Shown here one piece after another: positions 40,510-59,964 of a stretch of DNA of 64,000 bases. The stretch is from Rhodospirillaceae bacterium bin65 (GTDB lineage Bacteria > Pseudomonadota > Alphaproteobacteria > Bin65). Location: contig MPMX01000008.1 in NCBI GenBank assembly GCA_002238725.1, positions 1-64,000 on the forward strand, written 5' to 3'. Both the position numbers and the translations under genes were made by a program. The notes beneath the pieces are model-generated. The model was not told the origin of the DNA. It saw nothing but the letters and a program-made list of their open reading frames with translations, and did no database searches. Numbering within the stretch: the stretch's first letter is position 1; the number at the start of each line of letters is the position of its first letter.

Positions 40510-40645
40510 CGTCGTTTCTTTCAAGACAGAGGAGACGTTGCCCAGCTTAGAGCGGCGGTCCGGAAAATTCGATTCCGATTCCGCTGAAACCTGCAATGCC
40601 CTGCGGGAAAGTGCTTCCTGGCCGAGAATGTGATAGGTAGTGACC

Positions 40646-41284
40646 ATGTCGGATCGCAGCATGACACGGCGAACCGTAGCGGCCGGGCTGGCGGCCGGGA
40701 CCGCAGGTGCGGCGGCGACGCTCTTCTGGTCCGGTGCCCGCTCGACGACCCTGGGCTATGCCTTTCGGGGACCAGCCGCCGACCGCAGCCTCGATCTTGC
40801 ACGGCCGGCAGCGTGCACGCCCGGCACGGCAGGGCAAACGGAAGGGCCGTACTACACGCCGTCCGCGCCGCGCCGCGCCAGCCTGCGCGAACCGGGCGGC
40901 GGCGAGCCGCTGGTCCTGCAGGGGCTGGTGCTGACACCCGACTGCCGCCCCGTGCCCGGCGCGGTCGTCGACCTGTGGCATTGCGACGAGCGTGGCCGAT
41001 ACGACAACAGCGGCTATCGCTACCGCGGCCATCAGTTTACCGATGCTGCCGGCGCCTTCTTCTTCGAGACGATCCGGCCCGGCCACTACACCGGGCGGAC
41101 GCCGCATTTTCATCTCAAGGTGCAGGGCAAGGAAACCCGCTTGCTGACCACCCAGCTCTATTTCCCGGACCTGAGGGATGCCAACCGCCGGGACTTCATC
41201 TATCGCGACGAACTCAGGATGCAGCTCGGTTGGGCCGGCGGTATCTGGCGGGCGCGATTCGATTTCGTGCTGGCCCCGGCCTGA
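40646..41284 (+). CDS. exported intradiol ring-cleavage dioxygenase-like protein
   Basis: This is a 212-residue protein with an N-terminal twin-arginine-like signal (MTRRTVAAGLAAGTAGAAA) and then an intradiol dioxygenase fold. Seen are TEGPYYTP, GAVVDLWHCDERGRYDN, RYRGHQFTDAAGAFFFETI, and the metal region RPGHYTGRTPHFHLKVQG with Tyr and two His. Classical enzymes use two Tyr and two His to hold Fe(III). This points to protocatechuate/catechol-type cleavage, unusually exported, as in several 3,4-dioxygenase-like Tat proteins. ATG at 40646 is seven bases after an AGGT motif. Confidence 0.85.
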   Translation: MSDRSMTRRTVAAGLAAGTAGAAATLFWSGARSTTLGYAFRGPAADRSLDLARPAACTPGTAGQTEGPYYTPSAPRRASLREPGGGEPLVLQGLVLTPDCRPVPGAVVDLWHCDERGRYDNSGYRYRGHQFTDAAGAFFFETIRPGHYTGRTPHFHLKVQGKETRLLTTQLYFPDLRDANRRDFIYRDELRMQLGWAGGIWRARFDFVLAPA

Positions 41285-46670: not shown

Positions 46671-47480
46671 TTAAACGGGCGCGGGGGAGTCCGCCCACCC
46701 CTCCCACACCAGCGCCAGCACGCGCAGGGGCGAGCCACTGCCCTGCTTGATCTTGAGCGGGGCTGTGAAGAGGACGCTGCCGGTCGGGGGCAGCAGGTCC
46801 AGGTTGGTCAGGCATTGCAGGCCATAGCGGCCGGCGCCGTGGATATAGTAGTGGCACGGGTAGGGCGGGCGCAGATGCATGGCCTGGCCGGCGTCGGTGC
46901 CGATGCACTCGCTGCCGAAGCCCATGACGTCGCGCTCCTCGACCAGGAAGCGCACGGCGTCGGTGTCCGGCCCCGGCGTATGCTGCCCTTCCTCGTCGAA
47001 ATTCTGGTAGGATTCGGGATCCTGCCGCTTCGACCAGTCGGTCCGCATCAGCACCCATGATCGCGGCGGAATCCGGCCGTGCTCCTCCTCCCAGTTGCGC
47101 AGGAAATCGGCCGATAGCAGGAAATCGGCGTTTTGCTCGGCATGCTTCGCGCAATCCACGACGCAGGCCGGCGCAACCATGTTTTCGACCGGCACGGTAT
47201 CCGTGCTGTTGTTGGGCAGGTTGCGGCCGGAGACCCAGTGGATCGGCGCGTCGAAATGGGTGCCGGTGTGCTCGCCGCAGGAGAAGTTGTTCCAGTAGGC
47301 GGCGAGGCCGCGGTCGTCGTAGCGCGACACCTCCTCGAGCCGGAACGGCCAGCACTGGCCCATCTCCGGCGGCAGTTCGATCTGCGGGAAATCGGGCGAG
47401 AGGGTCTGGGTCAGGTCGATCACGCGGATCTTCCGCTCGGATATGCCGCGGACCATGTCCAGCAGGGGGTTGGCGGTCAT
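46671..47480 (-). CDS. cyclase family protein (kynurenine formamidase-like)
   Basis: This is a 269-residue metallohydrolase. The signature is EHTGTHFDAPIHW (HxGTHxDxPxH), which binds zinc or manganese and marks the cyclase/arylformamidase family; the C-terminal KIKQGSGSPLRVLALVWEG fits too. Members hydrolyse N-formylkynurenine, isatin and other amide or lactone bonds. It is the last gene of a minus-strand group with the thiolase-like and DUF35-SDR genes, after a 139-base gap containing a palindrome. Confidence 0.88.
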   Translation of the reverse strand: MTANPLLDMVRGISERKIRVIDLTQTLSPDFPQIELPPEMGQCWPFRLEEVSRYDDRGLAAYWNNFSCGEHTGTHFDAPIHWVSGRNLPNNSTDTVPVENMVAPACVVDCAKHAEQNADFLLSADFLRNWEEEHGRIPPRSWVLMRTDWSKRQDPESYQNFDEEGQHTPGPDTDAVRFLVEERDVMGFGSECIGTDAGQAMHLRPPYPCHYYIHGAGRYGLQCLTNLDLLPPTGSVLFTAPLKIKQGSGSPLRVLALVWEGWADSPAPV

Positions 47481-47619: not shown

Positions 47620-48885
47620 TTATTCGCCATGGGCAAGCTCGCGTTCCAGGACCTTGGGATCGGTGCGCCAGCGTTCGTACCAGTCCTTTGCGACATCGCC
47701 GGGATAGATGTCCTCGGCGCCGCCCTGCAACGCCCCGACGATGGAACGGGCGAGCGCCGCCGGCGTCACCTTGGGCGGGCGCAGTTCCTGGTTCCATTCG
47801 ACGTCGAGCGGCCCCGGATAGAGGTTGATGACGCGCACGCCGGACCTGTGCATGCCGGCCCTCATCGCCTGCGCGAGCGAATGGGCCGCCGCCTTGGAGG
47901 CGGAAAAGGTGCTCTGGTCCGGCTTGTTGGCGAGGGCGAAGATCGACAGGATGTTGACCCAGGCCACCGCGTTGGTCTCGGTATCGGCGCCGCGCGCCAT
48001 CATCACCGGCCCGAATTCCTGGGCCAGGCGCAGCAGGCCGAAATAGTTGATCTCCATTTCCGCCCGGGCGTTCTCGGTGCCGTAGCGTCCGCCGACGCTG
48101 TAGGCCCGGTGCTGCTCGGCCGTGTTGACCAGGATATCGACCTTGGGGCCGATCTGGCCGGCGCAGCGCTTGACCGAATCCGGGTTGGTCACGTCCAGGT
48201 CGACCACCGTGACCTCGGGCAGCGCCCGGATTTCCTCGAAACCGGGGATCTTCTTCCACGGCGCGGCCTCGCCGACCCAGACCAGGTCGGAGCCGGCCGC
48301 GATCATCGCCCTGACGACCGCCTGGCCGACCGGACCTTTGCCGTCTGTGACGAAGACCTTGCGGAATTTCGGATCGCAGGTCAGTTCGCGCATCTGGGGA
48401 TCGTCGCTCATATGGGGCGTATCCTTTTCCGGCAGGGCCAGCAGCACGGCCTGTCCTGCGCGGTCGAGCATGGCGCGGATGCGGACCCGGGCCGGCGGTT
48501 CGGCGCAATCGCCATGGACGTGGACGATCAGGCTCGGCGCGTCATGCGGCCCGTCGCCGTCCAGCTTCACGATGCCGAGCCGCCAGGGCAGGCGCTCGCG
48601 GAAATAGTTCTCCATGGCGTGGCGCAGGGTGGTGTGCGCCACCAGTTCGCCGGTTCCGCTCTGGAGCGTCCAGTCCAGCCGGTCGGAGAGGCATTCCCGG
48701 CAGGCCTCGCGCGGCGGATACTGGACGGCGCCGCAGTCCCGGCAGACCTGGAGCTCGAACGCGCCGCGCGCCGCGCCGGAGGTTAGGCCGAGCGATATCC
48801 GGCTGCGCGGCGCCGGGGGCAGCATCGGCGCCCTCGTGCGCAGGACCGGGTTCTTGCGCTTCGGTTTGGTCAGCGGCTTCGCCAC
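47620..48885 (-). CDS. fusion of DUF35 zinc-ribbon/OB domain with a short-chain dehydrogenase domain
   Basis: This is a 421-residue fusion. Residues ~40-150 are a DUF35 protein: a rubredoxin-like ribbon with CxxC at Cys48/Cys51 and Cys62/Cys65, then an OB fold (GTGELVAHTTLRHA). Residues ~172-415 are an SDR fold. The usual catalytic tyrosine is Phe327 (STFSASKAA, where YSASKAA is normal); Lys331 remains. The nucleotide motif is VFVTDGKGPVG instead of TGAxxGIG, and NNAG is NTAE. Classical SDR oxidoreductase activity is therefore doubtful. DUF35 proteins pair with thiolase-fold enzymes, and the thiolase-like gene lies directly upstream (three-base gap). A shared acyl-CoA complex is inferred. Confidence 0.85.
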   Translation of the reverse strand: MAKPLTKPKRKNPVLRTRAPMLPPAPRSRISLGLTSGAARGAFELQVCRDCGAVQYPPREACRECLSDRLDWTLQSGTGELVAHTTLRHAMENYFRERLPWRLGIVKLDGDGPHDAPSLIVHVHGDCAEPPARVRIRAMLDRAGQAVLLALPEKDTPHMSDDPQMRELTCDPKFRKVFVTDGKGPVGQAVVRAMIAAGSDLVWVGEAAPWKKIPGFEEIRALPEVTVVDLDVTNPDSVKRCAGQIGPKVDILVNTAEQHRAYSVGGRYGTENARAEMEINYFGLLRLAQEFGPVMMARGADTETNAVAWVNILSIFALANKPDQSTFSASKAAAHSLAQAMRAGMHRSGVRVINLYPGPLDVEWNQELRPPKVTPAALARSIVGALQGGAEDIYPGDVAKDWYERWRTDPKVLERELAHGE

Positions 48886-48888
48886 GGA

Positions 48889-50058
48889 TCAGTCTCCCGC
48901 CGCCAGGATCGCCGCCGCCGAGCAGACGCCGCGGTCGTAGCTGATCATGCCGTAGCCGCCGACCAGGCCGATCTTCGCGTCCGGCACCGGCGTGCCGAGC
49001 GCCTGCCCGGTGACCTGCCGGATCGCCTCGACCGTGCCGAGGAATCCGCCGCCGCCGCCCGCCTGGCCGACGGAAAGCTGGCCGCCGGAGGTGTTGATCG
49101 GAAAGCTGCCGTCCACCGTCAGGCTGTGGCCGCGCACGAAGTCCGGCGCCTCGCCCTTGGCGCAGAATCCCAGATCCTCGAACTGCAGCATGTTGATCAC
49201 GGGATAGTCGTCGTAGGTCTCGAAGAAATCGATGTCGTCCGGGCTCACGCCGGCCATGCCGTACAGTTCGCCGCTGTCCATCGCCCAGCCGCCGCGATAC
49301 TGCACGGGATCGTCGGTGTAGGCGTTGTGCCGCTCGATGGTGCCGAGAATCCGCCCGAAGCTCAAGCCGAGGTCGCGCGCTTCCGCCTCGCGCATGACGA
49401 GGTAGGCCTCGGCGCCGGCGCAGGGCATGACGCAGTCGAACAGATGCACCGGCTCGGCGATCGGCCGGGCGCTCATATACTGGTCCAGGGTGAGCGGTAC
49501 TTTGAACAGGGCGTGGGGGTAGGCGAGGGCATTTTCGCGCTGGGCCACGCACATCTTGCCGAAATCCTCGCGCCGCGCGCCGTAGGTCCGCATGTAGTAG
49601 TCGGTCAGGAAGGCGAAGCTGGCGTTGGGCCCGCCGGTGCCGATCGGATAGACCGCGTCCTTACCGAACTGGCTGAAATTCTCCAGCCCCTGGCGGAAAC
49701 TGTCTATGTGGTTGGTGTCGCCGGCGACACAGGCGACGATGTCGGCGTCGCCGGCCTGGACCGCGCGCGCCGCCCGGCGCATCGCGACCACCCCGGTGAC
49801 GCCGCCCATCGGGATATAGTCGAGCCAGCGCGGCGTCAGCCCGTGATGCTGGACGATGCCGACGGCGGTATCCGGCGCCAGCGACATGCTGGTTGCGCAC
49901 ACGCCGTCGAACCGGTCCTTGGTCAGTCCCGAATCGCGGACCAGCGCGGCCAGGGCGCGCCCGATCCACCAATGGGCGCCCCGGGTCGAGAAGCGGACAT
50001 AGGGGATCGAGACCGGCGTCGTGACGACGATGCCGTCATACGGCGCGCGTCGGGTCAT
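48889..50058 (-). CDS. thiolase-like protein (SCP2/Ltp type) lacking the catalytic Cys and His
   Basis: This is a 389-residue thiolase-fold protein. At the place of the nucleophilic cysteine (normally NNNCATGS or similar) it reads MGGVTGVV, with Gly86. At the place of the C-terminal GH motif it reads NTSGGQLSVGQAGG, with Gln332. It therefore should not do ordinary thiolysis or Claisen condensation. DUF35-partnered thiolase-fold proteins such as Ltp2 act as retro-aldolases without the nucleophile, a plausible model here. ATG at 50058 overlaps the stop of a small upstream ORF (ATGA). Confidence 0.85.
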   Translation of the reverse strand: MTRRAPYDGIVVTTPVSIPYVRFSTRGAHWWIGRALAALVRDSGLTKDRFDGVCATSMSLAPDTAVGIVQHHGLTPRWLDYIPMGGVTGVVAMRRAARAVQAGDADIVACVAGDTNHIDSFRQGLENFSQFGKDAVYPIGTGGPNASFAFLTDYYMRTYGARREDFGKMCVAQRENALAYPHALFKVPLTLDQYMSARPIAEPVHLFDCVMPCAGAEAYLVMREAEARDLGLSFGRILGTIERHNAYTDDPVQYRGGWAMDSGELYGMAGVSPDDIDFFETYDDYPVINMLQFEDLGFCAKGEAPDFVRGHSLTVDGSFPINTSGGQLSVGQAGGGGGFLGTVEAIRQVTGQALGTPVPDAKIGLVGGYGMISYDRGVCSAAAILAAGD

Positions 50059-50237: not shown

Positions 50238-52547
50238 TCAGGCCGCCCGGCGCGCGCCGTTCAGCACCCGGAAGACGGCGAGCGGCGTCGCCGGCATGTC
50301 GATATGGTCGATCCCGGTCGCCGGGCGCAGGGCATTGACCAGCGCGTTGATGACGGCCGGCGGCGCACCGATCGCCCCGGCCTCGCCCGCACCCTTGATG
50401 CCGAGCGGGTTGGTCGTGCAGTGCACGTTGCGGGTGTCGAAGCTGAAGAACGGGAAATAATCCGCCTTGGGCATGTTGTAGTCCATGAACGACCCGGTTT
50501 CGAGCTGGCCGCTCGCCGGATCGTACCAGGTGAATTCGTGCAGCGCCTGGCCGAGCCCCTGAACGATGCCGCCATGCACCTGGCCCTCGATCAGCAGCGG
50601 ATTGATCGTGTCGCCGAAGTCGTCGACCACCGTATAACGCAGAATCTCGATTTCGGCGGTCTCGGCATCGACCTCCAGTTCGACGATATGGGCGCCGTTG
50701 GGATAGGTGTCCGCTTCGGGCGTGCGTTCGAACGATTCGTCGAGCGGTTCGCCGTTCTCCTTCGCGTGGCCGGCGACATCGAACAGGGATACCTCCCGGT
50801 CGGTGCCGGCGACCCGGTAGGCGCCGTCGCCGTACTCGACGTCCCCGGGGGCGGCCTCCAGCATGTCGGCGGCGGTCTGCCGGCCCTTGTCAACGATGGC
50901 CGCAGCCAGCCCCAGCATTGCCGACCCGCCGACCGGGACGGAGCGCGACCCGCCGGTCATGCCGGGCGGGGCGCGGTCCGAATCGCCCTGGAAAATGCGG
51001 ATGCTCTCTGCGTCGATGCCGAGTTCGCCGGACAGGATCTGGCTGTAGGCGGTCTGGTGGCCCTGGCCGTTGTCCATCGTCCCGATGGCGACGGTGAGAA
51101 TGCCGTCGTCGCCGAAAGTGCCGGCCGCGACTTCTGGCGGGCCGCCGCCGCAGCGCTCGATATAGGTGGCGAGGCCGATGCCGCGATACTTGCCGCGCTT
51201 TGCCGATTCGGCCCGGCGGGCCTCGAAGCCGGCCCAGTCGGCCTGGGCCATCGTCTCGTCCATCAGCGCCTCGAACTCGCCGCTGTCGTACGTGTCGCCC
51301 AGGCAGGTGGCGTAGGGCATCTGCTCCGGCCGGATGAAGTTGATCCTGCGGATTTCGGCGGGCGACCGGCCCGTTTCCAGCGCTGCCATGTCGATGATCC
51401 GCTCGATGATATAGGCAGCTTCCGGCCGCCCGGCGCCGCGATAGGCGTCGACCGGCACCGTATTGGTCAGCACGCCCTTCACCGTCGTGTAGACGGCCGG
51501 GATGTCGTAGAGGCCGACCAGCATGTCCATGCCGAAACAGGCGACCAGCGGGGCGAATGTCGACAGATAGGCGCCTTCGTTGGCGAACGTGTCGGCGCGC
51601 AGGGCGAGGATTTTGCCGTTCCGGTCCAGGCCCAGCTTGCAGTAGGTGATGTTGTCCCGCGCCTGGACGTCGGAGAGAAAGCCCTCGGACCGTTCGGAGG
51701 TCCATTTGACCGGCCGCTTGAGCCGGCGCGCCGCCCAGATTGCCAGCGCCTGTTCCGCGTGCGGAAAGACCTTCATGCCGAAACCGCCGCCGACATGGCC
51801 GGTGGTGACGCGCAGGTGCGACGGATCGATTCCGAAAACGGGCTGGGCAAGAATATCGCGGATCAGGCTCGGTCCCTGGGTCGAGGCTGCGAGCGTCGTG
51901 CGCCCGCTCGCGGCGTCGTGTACGGCGAGCGCGCTGCGCGGCTCCATCGGATTTGCGACCACCCGGTTGTTGACCAGCCGGAGTTCGCAGACATGGTCCG
52001 CCCGGGCCAGCGCCGCCTCGACGCCGGCCTCGTCGCCCTTGTGCCAGTCGTAGATCAGATTGTTGGGGATGTGGTCGTAGAGCAGCGGGGCGTCGTCCGC
52101 CGTCGAATGTTCCGTGTGGATGGTAACCGGCAGTTCCTCATACTCCACTGCAATCCGCTCGGCGGCGTCGCGCGCCTGGGCCGCCGTCTCGGCCACGACC
52201 AGCACCACGGGATGGCCGACATAGCGCACGCGGTCGTCGGCCAGAATGCCGTGCGGCGAGTCGTGGCGCGCCGAACCGTCCCGGTTCTCGATGGGAATCA
52301 TGCAGGGCATGTCGCCGAGGCCGTCGGCGGCCATATCCGCGCCGGTCAGGATGCCGACCACACCCGGCAATCCCAGGGCATCGGCAATGTCTATCCCGAG
52401 AATGCGGGCGTGGGCGTGCGGGGAGCGCAGGACATGGGCCCAGACCTGGCCGGCGACGGAAGAATCGTCGGTATAGGCGCCTGCACCGGTCACAAGCACC
52501 CGATCCTCGACACGGGCCGCAGCCTGGCCAACTCCGAATTTGGTCAT
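50238..52547 (-). CDS. CoxL-type molybdenum-binding subunit of a xanthine dehydrogenase-family oxidoreductase (form II motif)
   Basis: This is a 769-residue large subunit. The chain starts VGQAAARVEDRVLVTGAGAY. The Mo-cofactor-contacting regions GGGFGMKVFPHAEQAL and DAYRGAGRPEAAYIIE are present. The AYRGAGR active-site sequence is that of form II (BMS-type) CO-dehydrogenase-like proteins, not the AYXCSFR of true CODH, so the substrate is uncertain. A terminal GGSRS-like loop occurs as MTGGSRSVPVGGSAM. The usual FAD (CoxM) and iron-sulfur (CoxS) subunits are absent from the neighbourhood, so it must recruit them from elsewhere. First gene of the minus-strand operon. Confidence 0.88.
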   Translation of the reverse strand: MTKFGVGQAAARVEDRVLVTGAGAYTDDSSVAGQVWAHVLRSPHAHARILGIDIADALGLPGVVGILTGADMAADGLGDMPCMIPIENRDGSARHDSPHGILADDRVRYVGHPVVLVVAETAAQARDAAERIAVEYEELPVTIHTEHSTADDAPLLYDHIPNNLIYDWHKGDEAGVEAALARADHVCELRLVNNRVVANPMEPRSALAVHDAASGRTTLAASTQGPSLIRDILAQPVFGIDPSHLRVTTGHVGGGFGMKVFPHAEQALAIWAARRLKRPVKWTSERSEGFLSDVQARDNITYCKLGLDRNGKILALRADTFANEGAYLSTFAPLVACFGMDMLVGLYDIPAVYTTVKGVLTNTVPVDAYRGAGRPEAAYIIERIIDMAALETGRSPAEIRRINFIRPEQMPYATCLGDTYDSGEFEALMDETMAQADWAGFEARRAESAKRGKYRGIGLATYIERCGGGPPEVAAGTFGDDGILTVAIGTMDNGQGHQTAYSQILSGELGIDAESIRIFQGDSDRAPPGMTGGSRSVPVGGSAMLGLAAAIVDKGRQTAADMLEAAPGDVEYGDGAYRVAGTDREVSLFDVAGHAKENGEPLDESFERTPEADTYPNGAHIVELEVDAETAEIEILRYTVVDDFGDTINPLLIEGQVHGGIVQGLGQALHEFTWYDPASGQLETGSFMDYNMPKADYFPFFSFDTRNVHCTTNPLGIKGAGEAGAIGAPPAVINALVNALRPATGIDHIDMPATPLAVFRVLNGARRAA

Positions 52548-52594
52548 CGTAATTCCTGCCTGTTGGATTGCCTGCACGCCGATAACTCTCCGGT

Positions 52595-52938
52595 GCGGAA
52601 ACGGTAATGCCGCGCCCGGCACGGTGCGCCAAACTTAACCCGGATTTCTCCCCACAGTCACGGCCTGCGTCGCGTCCAGGCGTTCGCTCCGCCAGGAGCG
52701 GGCCGAAAAGCGTAGCGGGGCCTACGGTTGAGGCCCGCGACGCCGCGGGCGGACGCCTGGGCGCGACCCGGAGGGCGTCGCTGTCGGGCCGGCATGGTGC
52801 GTCAAGCCGCTTGCCCGATGTCCCCGCATCGCGCTGCGCGGCTTTCCTGCCCTGCCGGCCCGACAGCGACGCGCAGGTCATGACTGTGGGGAGAAATCCG
52901 GGTTGGCGCGCCGGGCAGGGGCGGCAAGCGGATTCCGC
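52595..52938. repeat. nested inverted-repeat element (core 52637-52904)
   Basis: The core arms, 52637-52660 and 52881-52904, are perfect 24-base complements (left begins AACCCGGATTTCTCC, right ends GGAGAAATCCGGGTT). Outside, similarity continues imperfectly to about 52595 and 52938, with a six-base ACTTAA insertion on the left. Inside are two further stems: 52671-52687 with 52749-52765 (17 pairs, two of them G-T) and 52775-52794 with 52853-52872 (20 perfect pairs), each enclosing smaller hairpins. The whole can fold into one long branched structure. No target-site duplication or transposase is seen. It could be a MITE-like element or a structured RNA/DNA. Confidence 0.85.
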
Positions 52939-52990: not shown

Positions 52991-53132
52991 CCGGCCGCGC
53001 CTGCGGCCGTACACGAAGCTGTGATTTCGGCCTTCGTTTTTTCGCTTTTCAACGGCGCATAATGGGCGTAGAGGCCGCTTCCACCCTGCATTGGTCCGCG
53101 CACCGCAGGTGCGCCGGGCCCGGCCGATCGGC

Positions 53133-54032
53133 ATGACCATGAATTTCGATCGTCGTTCCGCAGCCTATCTGCAGAATCCGCAACCGCTCTTGCAGCGCCT
53201 GCTGTCGCAGGTGTCGACGGAAACGCTGCCCGACGCGGATCAGGTCGACAAGGTGTGCGCGCACGTTCCGGCGGGCACACGGATCTTCGTCGCCTCGCTG
53301 CCGTCGCGCGACCGCGCCGATACGGTGGCCGCCGCGAAGACGCTGAACGACCGCGGCTACATCGCCGTCCCGCACATCGCGGCGCGGGCCTTGCCGAGCC
53401 ATGCGGCGCTGGAAGATTTCCTCTATCGCCTGACCGGCGAGGCCGGCTGCCGCGAGGCACTGGTGATCGCCGGCGACCGTCCGGAAGTGGCCGGGCCTTA
53501 TGCCGAAACCATGGATGTATTGCTGACCGGCGCGCTGGAGCGCCACGGCCTGCAGATCATCCATGTCGGCGCCCATCCCGAGGGCAACCGGATCATCGGC
53601 AAGGATGCGCTGCGCGAGGCCATGCGCAAGAAGGACTATTACGCTCGCAGCAGCGACGCCGACTTCGATTTCGTCACCCAGTTCGTCTTCGACGGCGCGA
53701 CGGTGGTCGATTGGGCGCAGAAGCTGCGCGGACTGGGCGTTGGCCTGCCGGTGCGACTCGGCATCGCCGGACCGGCCGATCTGGCGACCCTGCTGCGTTA
53801 CGCCAGGATCTGCGGCATCGGCGTCTCCACCCGCGCGTTGATGCGCCAGGGCGCCGGCAGCGTGAAGCTGATCCGCCGGACCGTGAAGCCGGACGACCTG
53901 ATCGCCGGCCTGGTCGCCGCTGCCGGCGAGGATCCGTTGCCGGAGATCGCCGGGCTGCACATCTTCCCGTTCGGCGGCGTCGGGCGGGCCATGGAGTGGC
54001 TGGGCGAAGCGCGGCGGACCGCCGGGCTGTAA
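53133..54032 (+). CDS. methylenetetrahydrofolate reductase family protein (MetF-like)
   Basis: This is a 299-residue flavoprotein-fold protein. The TIM-barrel pattern is recognisable in GYIAVPHIAARALPSHAALE, ALVIAGDRPEVAGPY, HPEGNRIIGKDALREAM, DADFDFVTQFVFD and GIAGPADLATLLRYARICGI. The last two correspond to the folate/NADH-contacting strands of MTHFR. It is embedded among catabolic genes rather than methionine genes, so it may channel a methyl or C1 unit released by an O- or N-demethylation to folate, or have a diverged substrate. ATG at 53133; a second ATG follows two codons later. Confidence 0.82.
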   Translation: MTMNFDRRSAAYLQNPQPLLQRLLSQVSTETLPDADQVDKVCAHVPAGTRIFVASLPSRDRADTVAAAKTLNDRGYIAVPHIAARALPSHAALEDFLYRLTGEAGCREALVIAGDRPEVAGPYAETMDVLLTGALERHGLQIIHVGAHPEGNRIIGKDALREAMRKKDYYARSSDADFDFVTQFVFDGATVVDWAQKLRGLGVGLPVRLGIAGPADLATLLRYARICGIGVSTRALMRQGAGSVKLIRRTVKPDDLIAGLVAAAGEDPLPEIAGLHIFPFGGVGRAMEWLGEARRTAGL

Positions 54033-54137
54033 GCGACCGGATCCGGACCGAATTAGGGGGCTGGCAGCCGGGACGGCAGCCGGTATGGTCGCGCGGTCTG
54101 CAACGGACCGCCGCGAAACCATCCCCGGAATTCCGCC

Positions 54138-54980
54138 ATGCCCGCCTATACCGTTTTCGACTATGCCGTCGCTGACAACGTCGCGACGATCACCCTGAAC
54201 CGCCCGGAAAAGCGCAACGCCATGTCGCGCGAGTTCTGGGACGAGATGAAGGCGGTCTTCGGAGCGATCGGCGAGGATCCGGCGGTACGCGCCGTCGTCA
54301 TCGCCTCGACCGGCCCGCACTTCACGGCAGGCATCGACCTGGCCCTGCTGGGTCAGCTGATCGAAACTTCCACCGGTCTCGAAGAATCGCGCAAGCGCGA
54401 ATGGCTGCGCCGGTCGGTCCTCGATTTCCAGGAGAGCTTTACCGTCATGGAACGGGCGCGGGTGCCGGTTCTCGTGGCGATCCAGGGCGGCTGCATCGGC
54501 GGCGGGATGGACATGATCACGGCGGCCGACATGCGCTATTGCACGGCCGACGCCTTCTTCCAGGTCAAGGAGATCGAGGTCGGCATGACGGCTGATGTCG
54601 GCACCCTGCAGCGCCTGCCCAGGACGATGCCGGACGGGCTGGCCCGGGAGCTGTGCTATACCGGCCGGCGCATGCGGGCGGACGAGGCAAAGGCCTGCGG
54701 CTTCGTCAACGCCGTATACCCGGACCATGAAACGATGCTGGCCGAGGTTGCGGCCATCGCCGGCAATATCGCGGCCCATTCGCCGCTCGCCGTGACCGGC
54801 ACCAAGGAGATGCTGAATTACACCCGCGACCACAGCATTGCCGACGGTCTCAACTATGTTGCGACCTGGAACGCCGGCATGATTGTTTCGGAGGATTTGC
54901 GCAAGGCGGCCGCCGCGATGCAGAGCAAGGAGACGCCGGAGTACGAGAATCTTGCTCTGGGCGGAGTCGCCGCCGGATAG
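54138..54980 (+). CDS. delta(3,5)-delta(2,4)-dienoyl-CoA isomerase-like crotonase
   Basis: This is a 280-residue crotonase. The oxyanion-hole segments are HFTAGIDLALLG and QGGCIGGGMDMITAADMRYC. The acidic pair of dienoyl-CoA isomerases is visible in FQVKEIEVGMTADVGTLQRL (Glu in KEIEVG, Asp in TADVG). The isomerase subgroup is therefore more likely than simple hydratase. It would help the degradation of unsaturated acyl-CoA made by ring opening. Confidence 0.85.
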   Translation: MPAYTVFDYAVADNVATITLNRPEKRNAMSREFWDEMKAVFGAIGEDPAVRAVVIASTGPHFTAGIDLALLGQLIETSTGLEESRKREWLRRSVLDFQESFTVMERARVPVLVAIQGGCIGGGMDMITAADMRYCTADAFFQVKEIEVGMTADVGTLQRLPRTMPDGLARELCYTGRRMRADEAKACGFVNAVYPDHETMLAEVAAIAGNIAAHSPLAVTGTKEMLNYTRDHSIADGLNYVATWNAGMIVSEDLRKAAAAMQSKETPEYENLALGGVAAG

Positions 54981-55006
54981 GCCGCCGCTTCGGCGGACGC
55001 GGTTCG

Positions 55007-56299
55007 ATGACCGAAACGGCATCCAGCGCCGGCCGGATCGGCAGCCGCAGCAACAGCGGCGGCCTGGTCTGGCCCGCCGAAGGCTGGAGCCGCGTACCGT
55101 TCGAACTGTTCTGCGATCCGGAAATCCACGCGCTCGAGGACGAACGGCTCTTTCGCGGCCCGCACTGGAGCTATGTCGGCCTCGAAATCGAACTTCCGGA
55201 GGCCGGCGATTACACGACCTGCTATGTCGGCGCGACGCCGGTGGTGCTGGTGCGCGACGAGGGCGGCGTGCTGCGCGGCTTCGTCAACCGCTGCGCCCAT
55301 CGCGGCGCCGAAGTCGTCCGCAAGCCGCGCGGCAACGCACGCGGCTTCACCTGCATCTACCATAACTGGAGCTACGACCGGGCCGGACAGGTAACCGGCG
55401 TGCCGTGGGAGAAGGGCCGCGGCGGCGTCGGCGGCTACGACGCGTCCTTCGACAAGTCTCGGCACCGGATGCAGCCGCTCAGGGTCGCAAGCTGGGCCGG
55501 GGTGGTCTTCGGCACGTTCTCCGACGATGCGCCGCCACTCGAAGACTATCTCGGTCCGGCGATCCGCGAGCGCCTGTCGGCGGTGTTCGCCCGGCCGATG
55601 ATGCTGACCGGCTATCAGCGCCACACGATCCGTGCCAACTGGAAGCTGCTCTACGAGAACTCCCGCGACTTCTATCACGCGCCCCAGCTGCACAAGTTCT
55701 TCGGCGCCTTCGGCATCGTCCAGCCGGACCAGGCGGCGCGCGCCGAGATGTGGCACGAGGGCACCCACTGCCTGCTCACGATCTACCAGGATCCCGGCGC
55801 CCCGAAGCCGCGCATCAGGCTGGAGGAGCCGCGGGTCGCCGCCTTTCGCACCGCGCTGCCCGACAACATCGCGATTTCGATCGTCGGGATTTTCCCGAAT
55901 TGCCTGTTCACGCTGATCGGCAGCGCCTTCAGCATCCGCCAGTTCCGGCCCAAGGCGCCGGACCGCTTCGAAGTCCACTACACCTATTTCACCTACGCCG
56001 ACGATCCGGAATGCCTGCGCGAGCATCTGTTCCAGAACAACCAGTTCGGCCCGGCGGGCTATGTTGCGATGGAAGACGCCGAAGTGGTCGAGAAGCTGCA
56101 GGCGCGGATCGCGCTGGGCGCGGAAAAGGGCGCCAGCCTGGTCGCCATGGACGGAACCGACACGACGCCCGACCGGGTCGATCACATGGTGAGCGAGGCC
56201 AACCTGCGCGCCATGTGGAAGGGCTATGCCCGGTTCATGGGCTTCGCGCCGCCGAAGGGCGGGACCGCCAAACCTGTCGCGGAGCGCCCGGACAGGTGA
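55007..56299 (+). CDS. aromatic ring-hydroxylating dioxygenase alpha subunit
   Basis: This is a 430-residue oxygenase component. The Rieske motif is NRCAHRGAEV with FTCIYHNWSYD (Cys-x-His, Cys-x2-His). The catalytic iron triad starts with NSRDFYHAPQLHKFFG (two His, bridging Asp). An Asp ligand is expected in the C-terminal part. The beta subunit overlaps directly downstream (GTGA). The pair resembles salicylate/anthranilate/benzoate-type dioxygenases. Ferredoxin and reductase are not adjacent. Confidence 0.92.
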   Translation: MTETASSAGRIGSRSNSGGLVWPAEGWSRVPFELFCDPEIHALEDERLFRGPHWSYVGLEIELPEAGDYTTCYVGATPVVLVRDEGGVLRGFVNRCAHRGAEVVRKPRGNARGFTCIYHNWSYDRAGQVTGVPWEKGRGGVGGYDASFDKSRHRMQPLRVASWAGVVFGTFSDDAPPLEDYLGPAIRERLSAVFARPMMLTGYQRHTIRANWKLLYENSRDFYHAPQLHKFFGAFGIVQPDQAARAEMWHEGTHCLLTIYQDPGAPKPRIRLEEPRVAAFRTALPDNIAISIVGIFPNCLFTLIGSAFSIRQFRPKAPDRFEVHYTYFTYADDPECLREHLFQNNQFGPAGYVAMEDAEVVEKLQARIALGAEKGASLVAMDGTDTTPDRVDHMVSEANLRAMWKGYARFMGFAPPKGGTAKPVAERPDR

Positions 56300-56787
56300 G
56301 CGGTATCGGGCTCGATGTCGACCGCGAGGCCCTGTTCGCGATCGAACAGATGAACAAGGCCTATGCCCGCTGCCTCGACGACGACCGGCTGGAGGAGTGG
56401 CCGGACTTCTTCCTCGACGATGCGCGCTACCTGATCCAGTCGCGCGAGAACCGGGACGCCGGCCTGCATGGCTACATCCTGTATTTCGAGAACAGGGCGA
56501 TGATGCGCGACAGGGTCAAGTCGCTGCGGATCGCCAACTACTACAACCTCCACACCGACCGCCATCTCATCGCCAACGTCGATATCGTCGGGGAGTCGGA
56601 AGGGGTCTACGACGCCAGGGCCAACTATGCCGTGATCCAGACCGACGCCGAAGGACATTCGGAACTGTTCTCCGCCGGCGAATATGTCGACCGTATCGAA
56701 TTCAGGGACGGGGTGCCGAAATTCCGGGAAAGGCTGGTCCTGCTCGATACGTCGAACATCGTCGGCTTATTGGCGGTTCCGCTCTAA
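56296..56787 (+). CDS. aromatic ring-hydroxylating dioxygenase beta subunit
   Basis: This is a 163-residue small subunit of the SnoaL-like fold: EQMNKAYARCLDDDRLEEWP, FFLDDARYLIQSRENRD, RDRVKSLRIANYYNLHTDRH, and the end GVPKFRERLVLLDTSNIVG. The GTG start overlaps the alpha subunit stop. It gives the hexameric alpha3beta3 enzyme its structure. Confidence 0.92.
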   Translation: MSGIGLDVDREALFAIEQMNKAYARCLDDDRLEEWPDFFLDDARYLIQSRENRDAGLHGYILYFENRAMMRDRVKSLRIANYYNLHTDRHLIANVDIVGESEGVYDARANYAVIQTDAEGHSELFSAGEYVDRIEFRDGVPKFRERLVLLDTSNIVGLLAVPL

Positions 56788-56892: not shown

Positions 56893-57885
56893 ATGAAGTT
56901 GCACAAATTCGCCGTTCCGGCCGTCGCCGCGGTTGCGCTTGCCGCCGGTGCGGTTCCCTCCGCGGTAAGCGCCGCGGAAGTCACGCTGCGCGGCGCCAGC
57001 TGTTTCCCGATCGGCGCCCCGCCGGGCCGGCCGTTCGAAGCGGTCGCCAAGGAAATCAACGCCAAGGGCAAAGGCGTCGTCCAGGTCAAGATGCTGGGCG
57101 GCGCGCCTGCCATCGGCAGCCCCTTTACCCTGACCCAGCGGATGGCCAAGGGCGCCTACGATATCGTTGGCTGCACGGAATCCTATTTCGGCAACGTGCT
57201 GCCCGAATCGCCTGTGCTGCGCCTGCAGGAAAAGAGCTTTGCCGAGTTGCGCAAGAACGGCGCCGTCGCCTATGTCCAGAAGCTGCTGAACGCCAAGGGT
57301 ATTCACTATGTCGGGCGGCACCACGATTTCGGCCCGTTCCATCTCTATCTCAGCAAGCCGATCACGGGGCCCGACCTGAAAGGCCTGCATCTTCGGGTGG
57401 CGCCGGTTTACACCGCCTTCTTCAAGAAACTTGGGGCAACGGTGCAACGGGCGCCGATGCCGCAAATCTACACGCTGATGGAAAACGGCACGGTGCAGGG
57501 TTACGGCTGGCCGCTGCGCGGGTATCCGCCGCCGTGGCACAAGGTGACCAAATACCGGGTCGATCCTGGCTTTTACCATTCGTCGCTGCATACGCTGCTC
57601 AACCTGCGCAAGTGGAAGTCGCTGAGTAAGAAGGCACAGGATATCATCACCGGCGTCGTGCTGGCACGGGAAGGTCAGGTCGAAGGCGCCAGCGAGACTG
57701 CGCAGGCGCTGAACAAAAAACAGCGCGCATGGCATGCCAAGGGCGGGATGAAAACGATCACCTTCAATGCAGCCGACACCAAGAAGTGGTCGGACACGGC
57801 GCGCGACGCGGCGTGGGAAGAAGTGATCCAGCGCAGCCCGGAGCACGGGCCCAAGCTCAAGGCGCTGTTCACCAGCGGGAGCTGA
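56893..57885 (+). CDS. TRAP transporter substrate-binding protein (DctP type)
   Basis: This is a 330-residue periplasmic protein. The signal peptide ends near residue 27 (SAVSA). The mature chain has the DctP pattern LRGASCFPIGAPPGRPFEAVAKEIN, KGAYDIVGCTESYFGN, LHLRVAPVYTAFFKKLGA and WHKVTKYRVDPGFYHSS. The binding-site Arg/Asn region is LRVAPVY. It heads a TRAP operon with dctQ and dctM. It sits behind a ring-hydroxylating dioxygenase, so an aromatic acid or similar carboxylate ligand is likely. Confidence 0.9.
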   Translation: MKLHKFAVPAVAAVALAAGAVPSAVSAAEVTLRGASCFPIGAPPGRPFEAVAKEINAKGKGVVQVKMLGGAPAIGSPFTLTQRMAKGAYDIVGCTESYFGNVLPESPVLRLQEKSFAELRKNGAVAYVQKLLNAKGIHYVGRHHDFGPFHLYLSKPITGPDLKGLHLRVAPVYTAFFKKLGATVQRAPMPQIYTLMENGTVQGYGWPLRGYPPPWHKVTKYRVDPGFYHSSLHTLLNLRKWKSLSKKAQDIITGVVLAREGQVEGASETAQALNKKQRAWHAKGGMKTITFNAADTKKWSDTARDAAWEEVIQRSPEHGPKLKALFTSGS

Positions 57886-57902
57886 TCTTTCCGGAATGAA
57901 AG

Positions 57903-57936
57903 GGTGGCCGGCCGGCGTTGGCCGGCCACCTTTTTT
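57903..57936 (+). terminator. terminator inside the TRAP operon
   Basis: GGTGGCCGGCC and GGCCGGCCACC form an 11-bp stem with a six-base loop and six T. It lies directly between the binding-protein gene and the small permease gene. It probably reduces transcription into dctQM, giving excess binding protein over permease. Confidence 0.9.
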
Positions 57937-57954
57937 CTGCTCCAGGTTGTGGCA

Positions 57955-58485
57955 ATGACGGCGTCATCTTCCTTCCTCGATCGGTTCGAATCGGTCTTCG
58001 AACAGGTGAATCGCTTCATCGCGGCGCTGGTTGCGGCGTCAATCGGCGCTTTTGCAGTCCTGATCCCTTTCGACCTTTTCCTGCGCAAGGTCGGTTGGGG
58101 AAACCTGCCGTGGCTTCATGAAGGCGCGGAATACGGCCTGTATGTCGGCGTGTTCCTGTCGGCGGCGTGGGTTCTGAACAAGGGCGCCCATGTGCGGGTC
58201 GACATAATCATCGCCGCCCTGCCGGATCGCGTCGCCCTGCGCCTCGAGAGAGTGCTGGATATCGCCGGCGCGTTGCTGTGCGCGGTCTTGTGCTACTGCG
58301 GCGTCGCCGGAATGATCAGCGAGTATGCGTTCGGCACGCTGCCGGACAAGGACCTGCGCATTCCCAACTGGTATATGCTGCTGGTCTTCGGCCTTTCCTT
58401 CGCTCTGCTGACCGTCGAATTCCTCCTGCGCTACCGCCGCGCCGGCAAAGCTGGCGCAGTGGCGTCTTCCGACGCAGGGTTCTGA
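57955..58485 (+). CDS. TRAP transporter small permease (DctQ type)
   Basis: This is a 176-residue membrane protein with four hydrophobic helices (near 19-40, 50-70, 90-115 and 130-155). The loop VGWGNLPWLHEGAEYGLYVGVFLSAAWVLNKGAHVRVD (adjacent blocks) has the conserved H-VRVD of DctQ proteins. ATG at 57955 lies 19 bases after the terminator T run. Confidence 0.88.
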   Translation: MTASSSFLDRFESVFEQVNRFIAALVAASIGAFAVLIPFDLFLRKVGWGNLPWLHEGAEYGLYVGVFLSAAWVLNKGAHVRVDIIIAALPDRVALRLERVLDIAGALLCAVLCYCGVAGMISEYAFGTLPDKDLRIPNWYMLLVFGLSFALLTVEFLLRYRRAGKAGAVASSDAGF

Positions 58486-58488
58486 GCG

Positions 58489-59964
58489 ATGGAATGGTAT
58501 TTCGCCATGTCCCTGCTGCTGGGGACCGTGTGCGTCTTCCTGTTCCTCGGCATGCCCGTGGCGTTCGCCTTCATGGCGGCAAACATTTTCGGCACAGCCC
58601 TGTTCATCGGCGATCTGGCGCTGACCGGCGATTGGACGATCGCGGCAATCGCGCTCGAAAGTATGCCGATGGAGTTCCATCTGGCGGTGCGCTATTCGCT
58701 GACGCCCATCGCGCTGTTTCTGCTGATGGGCGAGATCCTGTTGCAGACCGGGGTTGCCTTCAAGGCGATCGGCGCGATCGAGCGCTTGATCGCCCGGATA
58801 CCGGGGCGGCTTTCCGTCGTCTCGATTGTCGGCGGTACGGTCTTTTCCTCGCTCTCCGGCTCGACCATCGCCAACACCGCGATCCTGGGCAACGTCCTGC
58901 TGCCGGATATGGTGAAGCGCGGCTACAAGCCGTCGATTTCCATGGGGCCGATCATGGCGGTCGGCGGCATCGCCATGCTGATTCCGCCCTCGGCGCTGGC
59001 CGTGCTGCTCGCCAGCATAGCCGAGCAGTCCGTCGCACTGCTACTCGTCGCCGGGATCGTGCCGGGTATCCTGATGGCGATCCTGTTCTTCGCCTATGTG
59101 ATCGGGCGGTGCGTGATGGACCCGAGCCTGGCGCCGGGATACGAACCCGACGAGAGCCATCTCGACGTGCCGCTCACCGTTGCGATCAACCATCGCGGCT
59201 CGGCATTGTGGTCTGCCACCTATAGCGGCCAGGCCCTGCGCAGCGTCAACCGCATCCTGCCCTTCTTCCTCTACATCCTGCCGCTGTTCACGATTTTCGT
59301 CGTGGTCGTCGGCAGTATCTTCCTGGATTTCGCCTCGCCGACAGAGGCTGCGGCGCTGGGCTGCCTGGCTGCGCTGGGCGCCTGCTATTTCTTCCGGCTG
59401 TTCAAGAACAGGATCACCGTCACGGGCGTCGAAGGCGCGGAATTCGACTGGCGGGCCGTCGCCAAGGCGCTGGTCGAGACCGCCAAGATCAACACGATGA
59501 TCCTGTTCATCATCGCCGGCTCGCTGGTGTTCACCCAGTCGCTGGCGGTTTCGGGCGCCACCCGCGGCCTGCTCGAGAGCCTGACGGCGCTGCAACTCAC
59601 GCCGCTTACCGTCGTCATAATGATGATGGCGGTGTTGCTGTTCCTCGGCGCTTTCATGGACCAGGTGAGCATGCTCCTGCTCACGCTGCCGTTCTTCCTG
59701 CTCGGCTCGACGTCGCTGCAGGCAGTCTACAATATCGATCCGATCTGGCTGATGGTGCTGATCCTGATCACCATGGAGATCAGCCTGCTGACACCGCCTT
59801 TCGGACTGTTGCTCTACGTGATGAAAGGCGTGGCGCCGTTCGACGTGTCCATCGGGGCGGTTATCCGTTCCGCAATGCCCTTTATCCTGATCGAAATTCT
59901 CGTTCTGATCTTGCTGATCTTCGTCCCGGAGGTGGCGACTTGGCTGCCCAGACAGATCGGCTGA
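58489..59964 (+). CDS. TRAP transporter large permease (DctM type)
   Basis: This is a 491-residue membrane protein with about 12-13 hydrophobic segments. Conserved are GMPVAFAFMAANIFGTALF, AILGNVLLPDMVKRGYKPS, GGIAMLIPPSALAVLLASIA and ITMEISLLTPPFGLLLYVMKG. It overlaps nothing but lies three bases after dctQ. It uses a sodium or proton gradient to take up the carboxylate bound by the DctP protein. Confidence 0.92.
   Translation: MEWYFAMSLLLGTVCVFLFLGMPVAFAFMAANIFGTALFIGDLALTGDWTIAAIALESMPMEFHLAVRYSLTPIALFLLMGEILLQTGVAFKAIGAIERLIARIPGRLSVVSIVGGTVFSSLSGSTIANTAILGNVLLPDMVKRGYKPSISMGPIMAVGGIAMLIPPSALAVLLASIAEQSVALLLVAGIVPGILMAILFFAYVIGRCVMDPSLAPGYEPDESHLDVPLTVAINHRGSALWSATYSGQALRSVNRILPFFLYILPLFTIFVVVVGSIFLDFASPTEAAALGCLAALGACYFFRLFKNRITVTGVEGAEFDWRAVAKALVETAKINTMILFIIAGSLVFTQSLAVSGATRGLLESLTALQLTPLTVVIMMMAVLLFLGAFMDQVSMLLLTLPFFLLGSTSLQAVYNIDPIWLMVLILITMEISLLTPPFGLLLYVMKGVAPFDVSIGAVIRSAMPFILIEILVLILLIFVPEVATWLPRQIG

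Follow-up and report, generated by a model that had tools for sequence, protein, structure and literature searches.

Several thiolase-fold proteins that work with a DUF35 partner have been described. In the CtSal–CtShy bile-acid side-chain aldolase (9myr), CtSal has a Gly where thiolases carry their nucleophilic Cys and a YDCY motif in which Tyr302 is the base and Cys304 the acid, with roles proposed for Gln347 and for Gln352, the latter at the His position (PMC12329534). The steroid aldolase Ltp2–ChsH2 (6ok1) combines the thiolase fold with a four-Cys DUF35 partner, carries its Tyr base in a YDHF motif (PMC12329534), and performs a retro-aldol cleavage to a ketone and an acyl-CoA. A DUF35-type zinc-finger subunit also sits on the thiolase fold of benzoylsuccinyl-CoA thiolase BbsAB (7pxp), and the BbsCD dehydrogenase with its inactive SDR subunit, known here from a title cited in PMC10818641, offers an earlier case of a pseudo-SDR within an acyl-CoA pathway. 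The iad pathway of aerobic auxin (indole-3-acetate) degradation, a means for root bacteria to control auxin, has been described from loci of Variovorax, Bradyrhizobium, Achromobacter, and Ruegeria (PMC9613470, PMC12633357, PMC10374108). In Variovorax, IadCDE and IadJ produce dioxindole-3-acetate, which builds up when iadF, iadG, iadH, or iadI is deleted, with later intermediates unseen (PMC12633357). These four proteins form the middle of the pathway, and their roles had come from annotation.

The stretch of DNA analyzed here (the window) comprises 64,000 nucleotides from Rhodospirillaceae bacterium bin65. On its minus strand lie two adjacent open reading frames, exactly where an earlier note had placed them, which that note read as a thiolase-like protein and a DUF35–SDR fusion, the joining of DUF35 to a Tyr-less SDR being a combination it did not recognize. 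The combination turns out to be a described one. By sequence and gene order the pair is IadG and IadH of the iad pathway, as the proteins are ~65% and ~62% identical to those of Variovorax and occupy the same position in the iad order. That order is IorA-IorB-IadC-D-E-F-G-H-I-J in Variovorax, Achromobacter, Aromatoleum, and others, and C-D-E-F-G-H-I-J in V. paradoxus ISL-79 and V. beijingensis, in agreement with the CL14 gene numbering, which runs C, D, E, F, G, H-J (PMC10374108). The gene after iadH encodes IadI, which matches the solved isatin hydrolase A (5nna) with a phmmer E-value of 1.7e-108 and carries signature motifs described for isatin hydrolases (PMC6117287), both of which are conserved in its relatives. 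The window thus shares orthologous genes, their order, and the same isatin-to-anthranilate end with the published loci; it differs in holding only iadG-H-I together, the remaining genes being dispersed so that the iad set of the genome is spread over four contigs. Contig 26 carries an IadD homologue (65%) with IadE and IadJ adjoining, contig 17 an IadF homologue (48%), and contig 12 an IorA homologue (56%) with IorB; IadC was not found near IadD in this genome. The relatives with 95–97% identical IadG are Rhodospirillaceae bins associated with sponges, an origin given by the record name Spongia_Bin9, and the iad pathway appears to reach sponge-associated Alphaproteobacteria. While the genes and the pathway were already known, the assignment of a substrate and reaction, the YDDY variant, the reading of the SDR half of IadH as a pseudo-enzyme fused to DUF35, and the natural loss of that half are new.

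Table 1 Features of the iadG-H-I cassette and neighboring genes in the window
Feature	Position	Strand	Remarks
Intradiol ring-cleavage dioxygenase-like gene	40640-41281	+	Dioxygenase_C; a homocysteine S-methyltransferase-like gene lies upstream
IadI orthologue, isatin hydrolase (cyclase family)	46671..47480	-	GTHFDAPIH and GLQC signatures; gene after iadH
IadH orthologue, DUF35 + pseudo-SDR (most likely non-catalytic), 421 aa	47620..48885	-	GTG start; Pfam zf-ChsH2 + OB_ChsH2_C (DUF35) + adh_short
SDR-fold part of IadH	47629..48363	-	Degenerate TGxxxGxG; Asp181 at first Gly position
IadH Phe327, catalytic Tyr position of SDR	codon 47905-47907	-	
DUF35 part of IadH: zinc ribbon (Cys48, 51, 62, 65) + OB fold	48481..48780	-	PF12172 and PF01796 above gathering score
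IadG orthologue, thiolase-fold, Cys-less, 389 aa	48889..50058	-	ATG start; Pfam Thiolase_C_1
IadG Gln327-Leu-Ser-Val-Gly-Gln332	49063..49080	-	Gln347 and Gln352 of CtSal by alignment
IadG YDDY motif, Tyr282-Asp283-Asp284-Tyr285	49204..49215	-	Alignment counterparts: YDHF (Ltp2), YDCY (CtSal)
IadG Gly86, thiolase nucleophilic Cys position	49801..49803	-	98/99 homologues
Molybdenum hydroxylase large subunit	50238-52622	-	Resembles glyceraldehyde dehydrogenase alpha / CO dehydrogenase; stands alone immediately upstream of iadG
MTHFR-like protein, crotonase, Rieske oxygenase alpha/beta pair	53091-56787	+	
TRAP transporter genes DctP, DctM	56893-59964	+	

The pairing of the two genes holds well beyond this genome. 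Among 99 loci with an IadG, the partner is a same-strand DUF35–SDR fusion in 89, a bare DUF35 in 4, and a shorter fusion in 1, with the rest cut by contig ends; the named relatives belong to Variovorax, Bradyrhizobium, Achromobacter, Alcaligenes, Aromatoleum, Bordetella, Roseibium, Sulfitobacter, and Ruegeria. The genes are adjacent in nearly every locus and overlap by 4 bases in 60 of 88 measured cases, which fits coupled translation. By analogy with the aldolases above, IadG and IadH most likely form one complex. A search of viral contigs returned no relative.

IadG reads GG at residues 85–86, YDDY at 282–285, and GGQLSVGQ at 325–332. The YDDY motif, Gln327, and Gln332 are each present in 99/99 homologues and Gly86 in all but one, so that the Gly and Gln that the earlier note saw in place of the nucleophilic Cys and the GH His are not peculiar to this protein. 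Thiolases from the same group of genomes have Cys, HD, and GHP in the aligned columns where IadG has GG, YD, and GQ, and the conserved residue set together with this difference points to a coordinated change rather than chance. Essentially all 99 homologues lack the Cys nucleophile of thiolases as well as both His residues, those of HD and of GH, and the possibility that the Cys had moved to a shifted position, raised in the earlier note, was rejected, since a direct column comparison with thiolases shows none. The first reading had missed the catalytic Tyr of the aldolases, which is present as Tyr282 at the HD position. Judging from their homologues, the replaced residues of IadG, and those of IadH described below, are family-wide traits and not damage.

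The solved structure nearest to IadG by sequence is 9myr, CtSal with the Shy DUF35 domain, which an HMM search ranks first. An AlphaFold model of IadG (mean pLDDT 86.7, pTM 0.91) gives the same answer, as Foldseek returns CtSal of 9myr first (E 4.3e-32) and Ltp2–ChsH2 of 6ok1 second. In our tree all IadG proteins form one clade (100/99) adjoining CtSal (93/92), a sister grouping that is without strong support and in which some of the branches involved are long, while the Cys-thiolases lie across a fully supported branch. These include BbsB, which by alignment retains the thiolase Cys and the HD and GHP motifs that IadG does not. With CtSal, IadG shares the thiolase fold, Gly for Cys, the Tyr of a YDxY motif, both Gln residues, and a DUF35 partner, although the two proteins are only ~27% identical and the known general acids are missing: in place of the essential Cys304 of CtSal IadG has Asp284, and in place of the second Tyr (344) of Ltp2, whose YDHF is YDDY here, it has Gln332, each in 99/99 homologues. 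The closest folds and the gene adjacency lend good support to the earlier note's suggestion of an acyl-CoA retro-aldolase complex in a catabolic operon; the residue changes that it pointed out are normal in the CtSal/Ltp2 branch. A genome from the same family encodes a thiolase-like protein (locus L161, 1474-2652) that has YDDF and GGQISAGQ and lies on a long branch adjoining IadG; it may be a further Tyr-Asp aldolase, acting on some other substrate.

IadH joins a well-kept DUF35 part to an eroded SDR part. Its four zinc Cys are conserved in 89/89 homologues, as in the four-Cys partner of Ltp2 and unlike Shy, which has a Cys3His site and whose DUF35 is fused to a MaoC hydratase instead. The SDR half bears out the earlier note on both counts, Phe327 in place of the catalytic Tyr and a changed nucleotide motif. 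In the window the cofactor motif reads TDGKGPVG instead of TGxxxGxG; none of the 89 homologues has the full glycine motif, and the first Gly is Asp or Asn in 88/89. The Tyr position is F in 33, Y in 26, W in 16, T in 8, and other residues in the remainder (n = 89), and a complete Asn-Ser-Tyr-Lys set occurs in 4/89. A strict rule that Tyr and Lys never occur together was dropped, as 4/89 have both. Variovorax IadH shows the same erosion, with Phe for Tyr (FSASK) and a TDGK cofactor motif. IadH thus lacks the features of a catalytic SDR, while IadJ from the same genome is intact (TGGSAGIG, YSATK). The predicted model of IadH is nevertheless confident (mean pLDDT 90.9), and among solved SDR folds the nearest to its SDR half is 5u4s, which has NADP bound, so that the fold has been retained and the motifs have not. 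The SDR half is therefore most likely a non-catalytic scaffold, a pseudo-enzyme as far as its residues indicate. This arrangement differs from BbsCD, where BbsC and BbsD are separate subunits of an active dehydrogenase, without a DUF35 fusion.

The SDR half is also missing from some natural variants. In four loci, those of Paenalcaligenes (L061), Alcaligenes (L069), and two MAGs (L088 and L047), a bare DUF35 of ~135–160 aa replaces IadH; it is 39–57% identical to the DUF35 part of IadH, is directly followed by IadJ or IadI, and stands in loci that retain most of the iad set. In the IadG tree L061 and L069 fall together, with L047 and L088 placed elsewhere, and from these scattered positions the SDR half was probably lost at least three separate times. 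The idea that the SDR half serves as a dock for IadJ found no support in local co-occurrence: IadJ is nearby in 31 fusion loci and not in 31, and it is present in 4/4 SDR-less loci.

We consider it quite probable that IadG–IadH is a DUF35-dependent retro-aldolase of the aerobic auxin pathway that converts dioxindole-3-acetyl-CoA to isatin and acetyl-CoA, with the SDR half of IadH non-catalytic. The next gene encodes an isatin hydrolase, which settles that isatin is what this step has to yield, and dioxindole-3-acetyl-CoA is a beta-hydroxyacyl-CoA with exactly isatin and acetyl-CoA as its retro-aldol products. The mass balance (C10H9NO4 = C8H5NO2 + C2H4O2) closes with no redox step. In the sequence of events that we propose, dioxindole-3-acetate would come from IadDE, a Rieske oxygenase, acting with IadJ, a dehydrogenase, and would be turned into its CoA ester by the ligase IadF. 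Tyr282 of IadG would then take the proton from the C3 hydroxyl, the C3–CH2 bond would break, and isatin would be released; the acetyl-CoA enolate would be protonated by Asp284 or by a water held by Gln327/Gln332. IadH would dock on IadG through its zinc-ribbon/OB part, as in CtSal and Ltp2, and shape the substrate pocket, and IadI would finally hydrolyze isatin to isatinate. The reaction type is that of Ltp2, although IadG is predicted to release acetyl-CoA and Ltp2 propionyl-CoA, and the predicted substrate is an oxindole where that of CtSal is a steroid. It is likely, in our judgment, that IadG represents a new subclass of thiolase-fold aldolases with a Tyr-Asp pair (YDDY), that the acetate side chain of auxin is cut by retro-aldol to give isatin directly, and that the pseudo-SDR acts as a scaffold on the DUF35 partner. 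If this is correct, each of IadF, IadG, IadH, and IadI gains a defined reaction, IadH is a partner protein and not a dehydrogenase, acetyl-CoA is the predicted carbon gain, and DUF35–thiolase-fold aldolases take in indoles as well as steroids, with another pair of catalytic residues. In the openly accessible literature that we searched, we found no proposal of a retro-aldol step in auxin degradation.

Several points count against this model. The main difficulty is that Variovorax without iadI accumulates C8H7NO2, from which the authors infer reductive side-chain removal (PMC12633357); this is the formula of dioxindole and not of isatin (C8H5NO2), so that a retro-aldol model must assume reduction of isatin by other carbonyl reductases. 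Secondly, no CoA intermediate was detected in vivo. The spread of this genome's iad genes over four contigs, with IadC not found near IadD, and the four IadH proteins with an intact Asn-Ser-Tyr-Lys set also weigh against it. Lastly, we infer Asp284 as the general acid by analogy, from its place at the CtSal acid position, and the C304A, C304S, and C304H variants of CtSal are inactive (PMC12329534), leaving an Asp in this role without a tested precedent.

It is conceivable, though unlikely, that in the sponge-associated lineage the IadG-H-I cassette acts on another substrate, with the oxygenase and ligase elsewhere serving separate pathways. Such a reading would account for the distance of the cassette from iadDE, iadJ, and iadF and for the molybdenum hydroxylase large subunit that adjoins it both in the window and in a number of related genomes; against it, the same genome has an orthologue of each of IadD, E, J, F, and IorAB, and the match of IadI to isatin hydrolase A is very strong. 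We give still less weight to a variant in which IadG is the retro-aldolase but the SDR half of IadH is an active reductase (isatin to dioxindole) or an NAD(P)H-binding sensor. The dioxindole-formula metabolite seen in vivo (PMC12633357), the four homologues with a complete catalytic set, and the NADP bound in 5u4s are consistent with such activity, but the glycine motif is intact in no homologue, with its first Gly replaced in nearly all, the Tyr is absent in both the window and Variovorax, SDR-less variants exist, and an isatin hydrolase requires isatin, not dioxindole. The published, annotation-based assignment, in which a ketothiolase (IadG) and an alcohol dehydrogenase (IadH) work with IadF to remove the acetyl side chain reductively to C8H7NO2, is contradicted by the retro-aldol model and seems to us improbable: it has the Variovorax knock-outs, the metabolites (PMC12633357), and the general annotation of the proteins as thiolase and SDR in its favor, yet IadG and its relatives lack the thiolase residues, IadH of Variovorax itself has the eroded SDR motifs, IadH lacks an SDR domain in several iad loci, dioxindole is no 3-ketoacyl product, and an isatin hydrolase follows as the next enzyme.

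Beyond the cassette, the window holds several further genes (Table 1). No small or medium molybdenum hydroxylase subunit was seen beside the large subunit, which also stands beside iadG in L042, L141, and L142, lies at the edge of the contig in L143, and was not found in L140. The Rieske oxygenase of the window (55007-56296) was considered as IadD and rejected; it is ~26% identical to IadD, and the true IadD is the one on contig 26. The pair is nearer to AndAc/AndAd, an anthranilate dioxygenase, with a score of 341 bits that falls short of the family cut-off, and since anthranilate is the iad end product, a link of this AndAc/AndAd-like pair to the pathway is possible. A MarR gene beside the Ruegeria locus was considered as a link to the auxin-binding MarR 3CDH, which was not upheld, as the stretch holds transposase-like ORFs. 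TRAP systems, like that of the window, flank the iad loci of Roseibium, Sulfitobacter, and Paracoccus. In two Variovorax loci a second IadD/IadE-like pair, ~50% identical to the IadD reference, lies downstream of iadJ (L100, 14212-16280; L113, 14356-16175).
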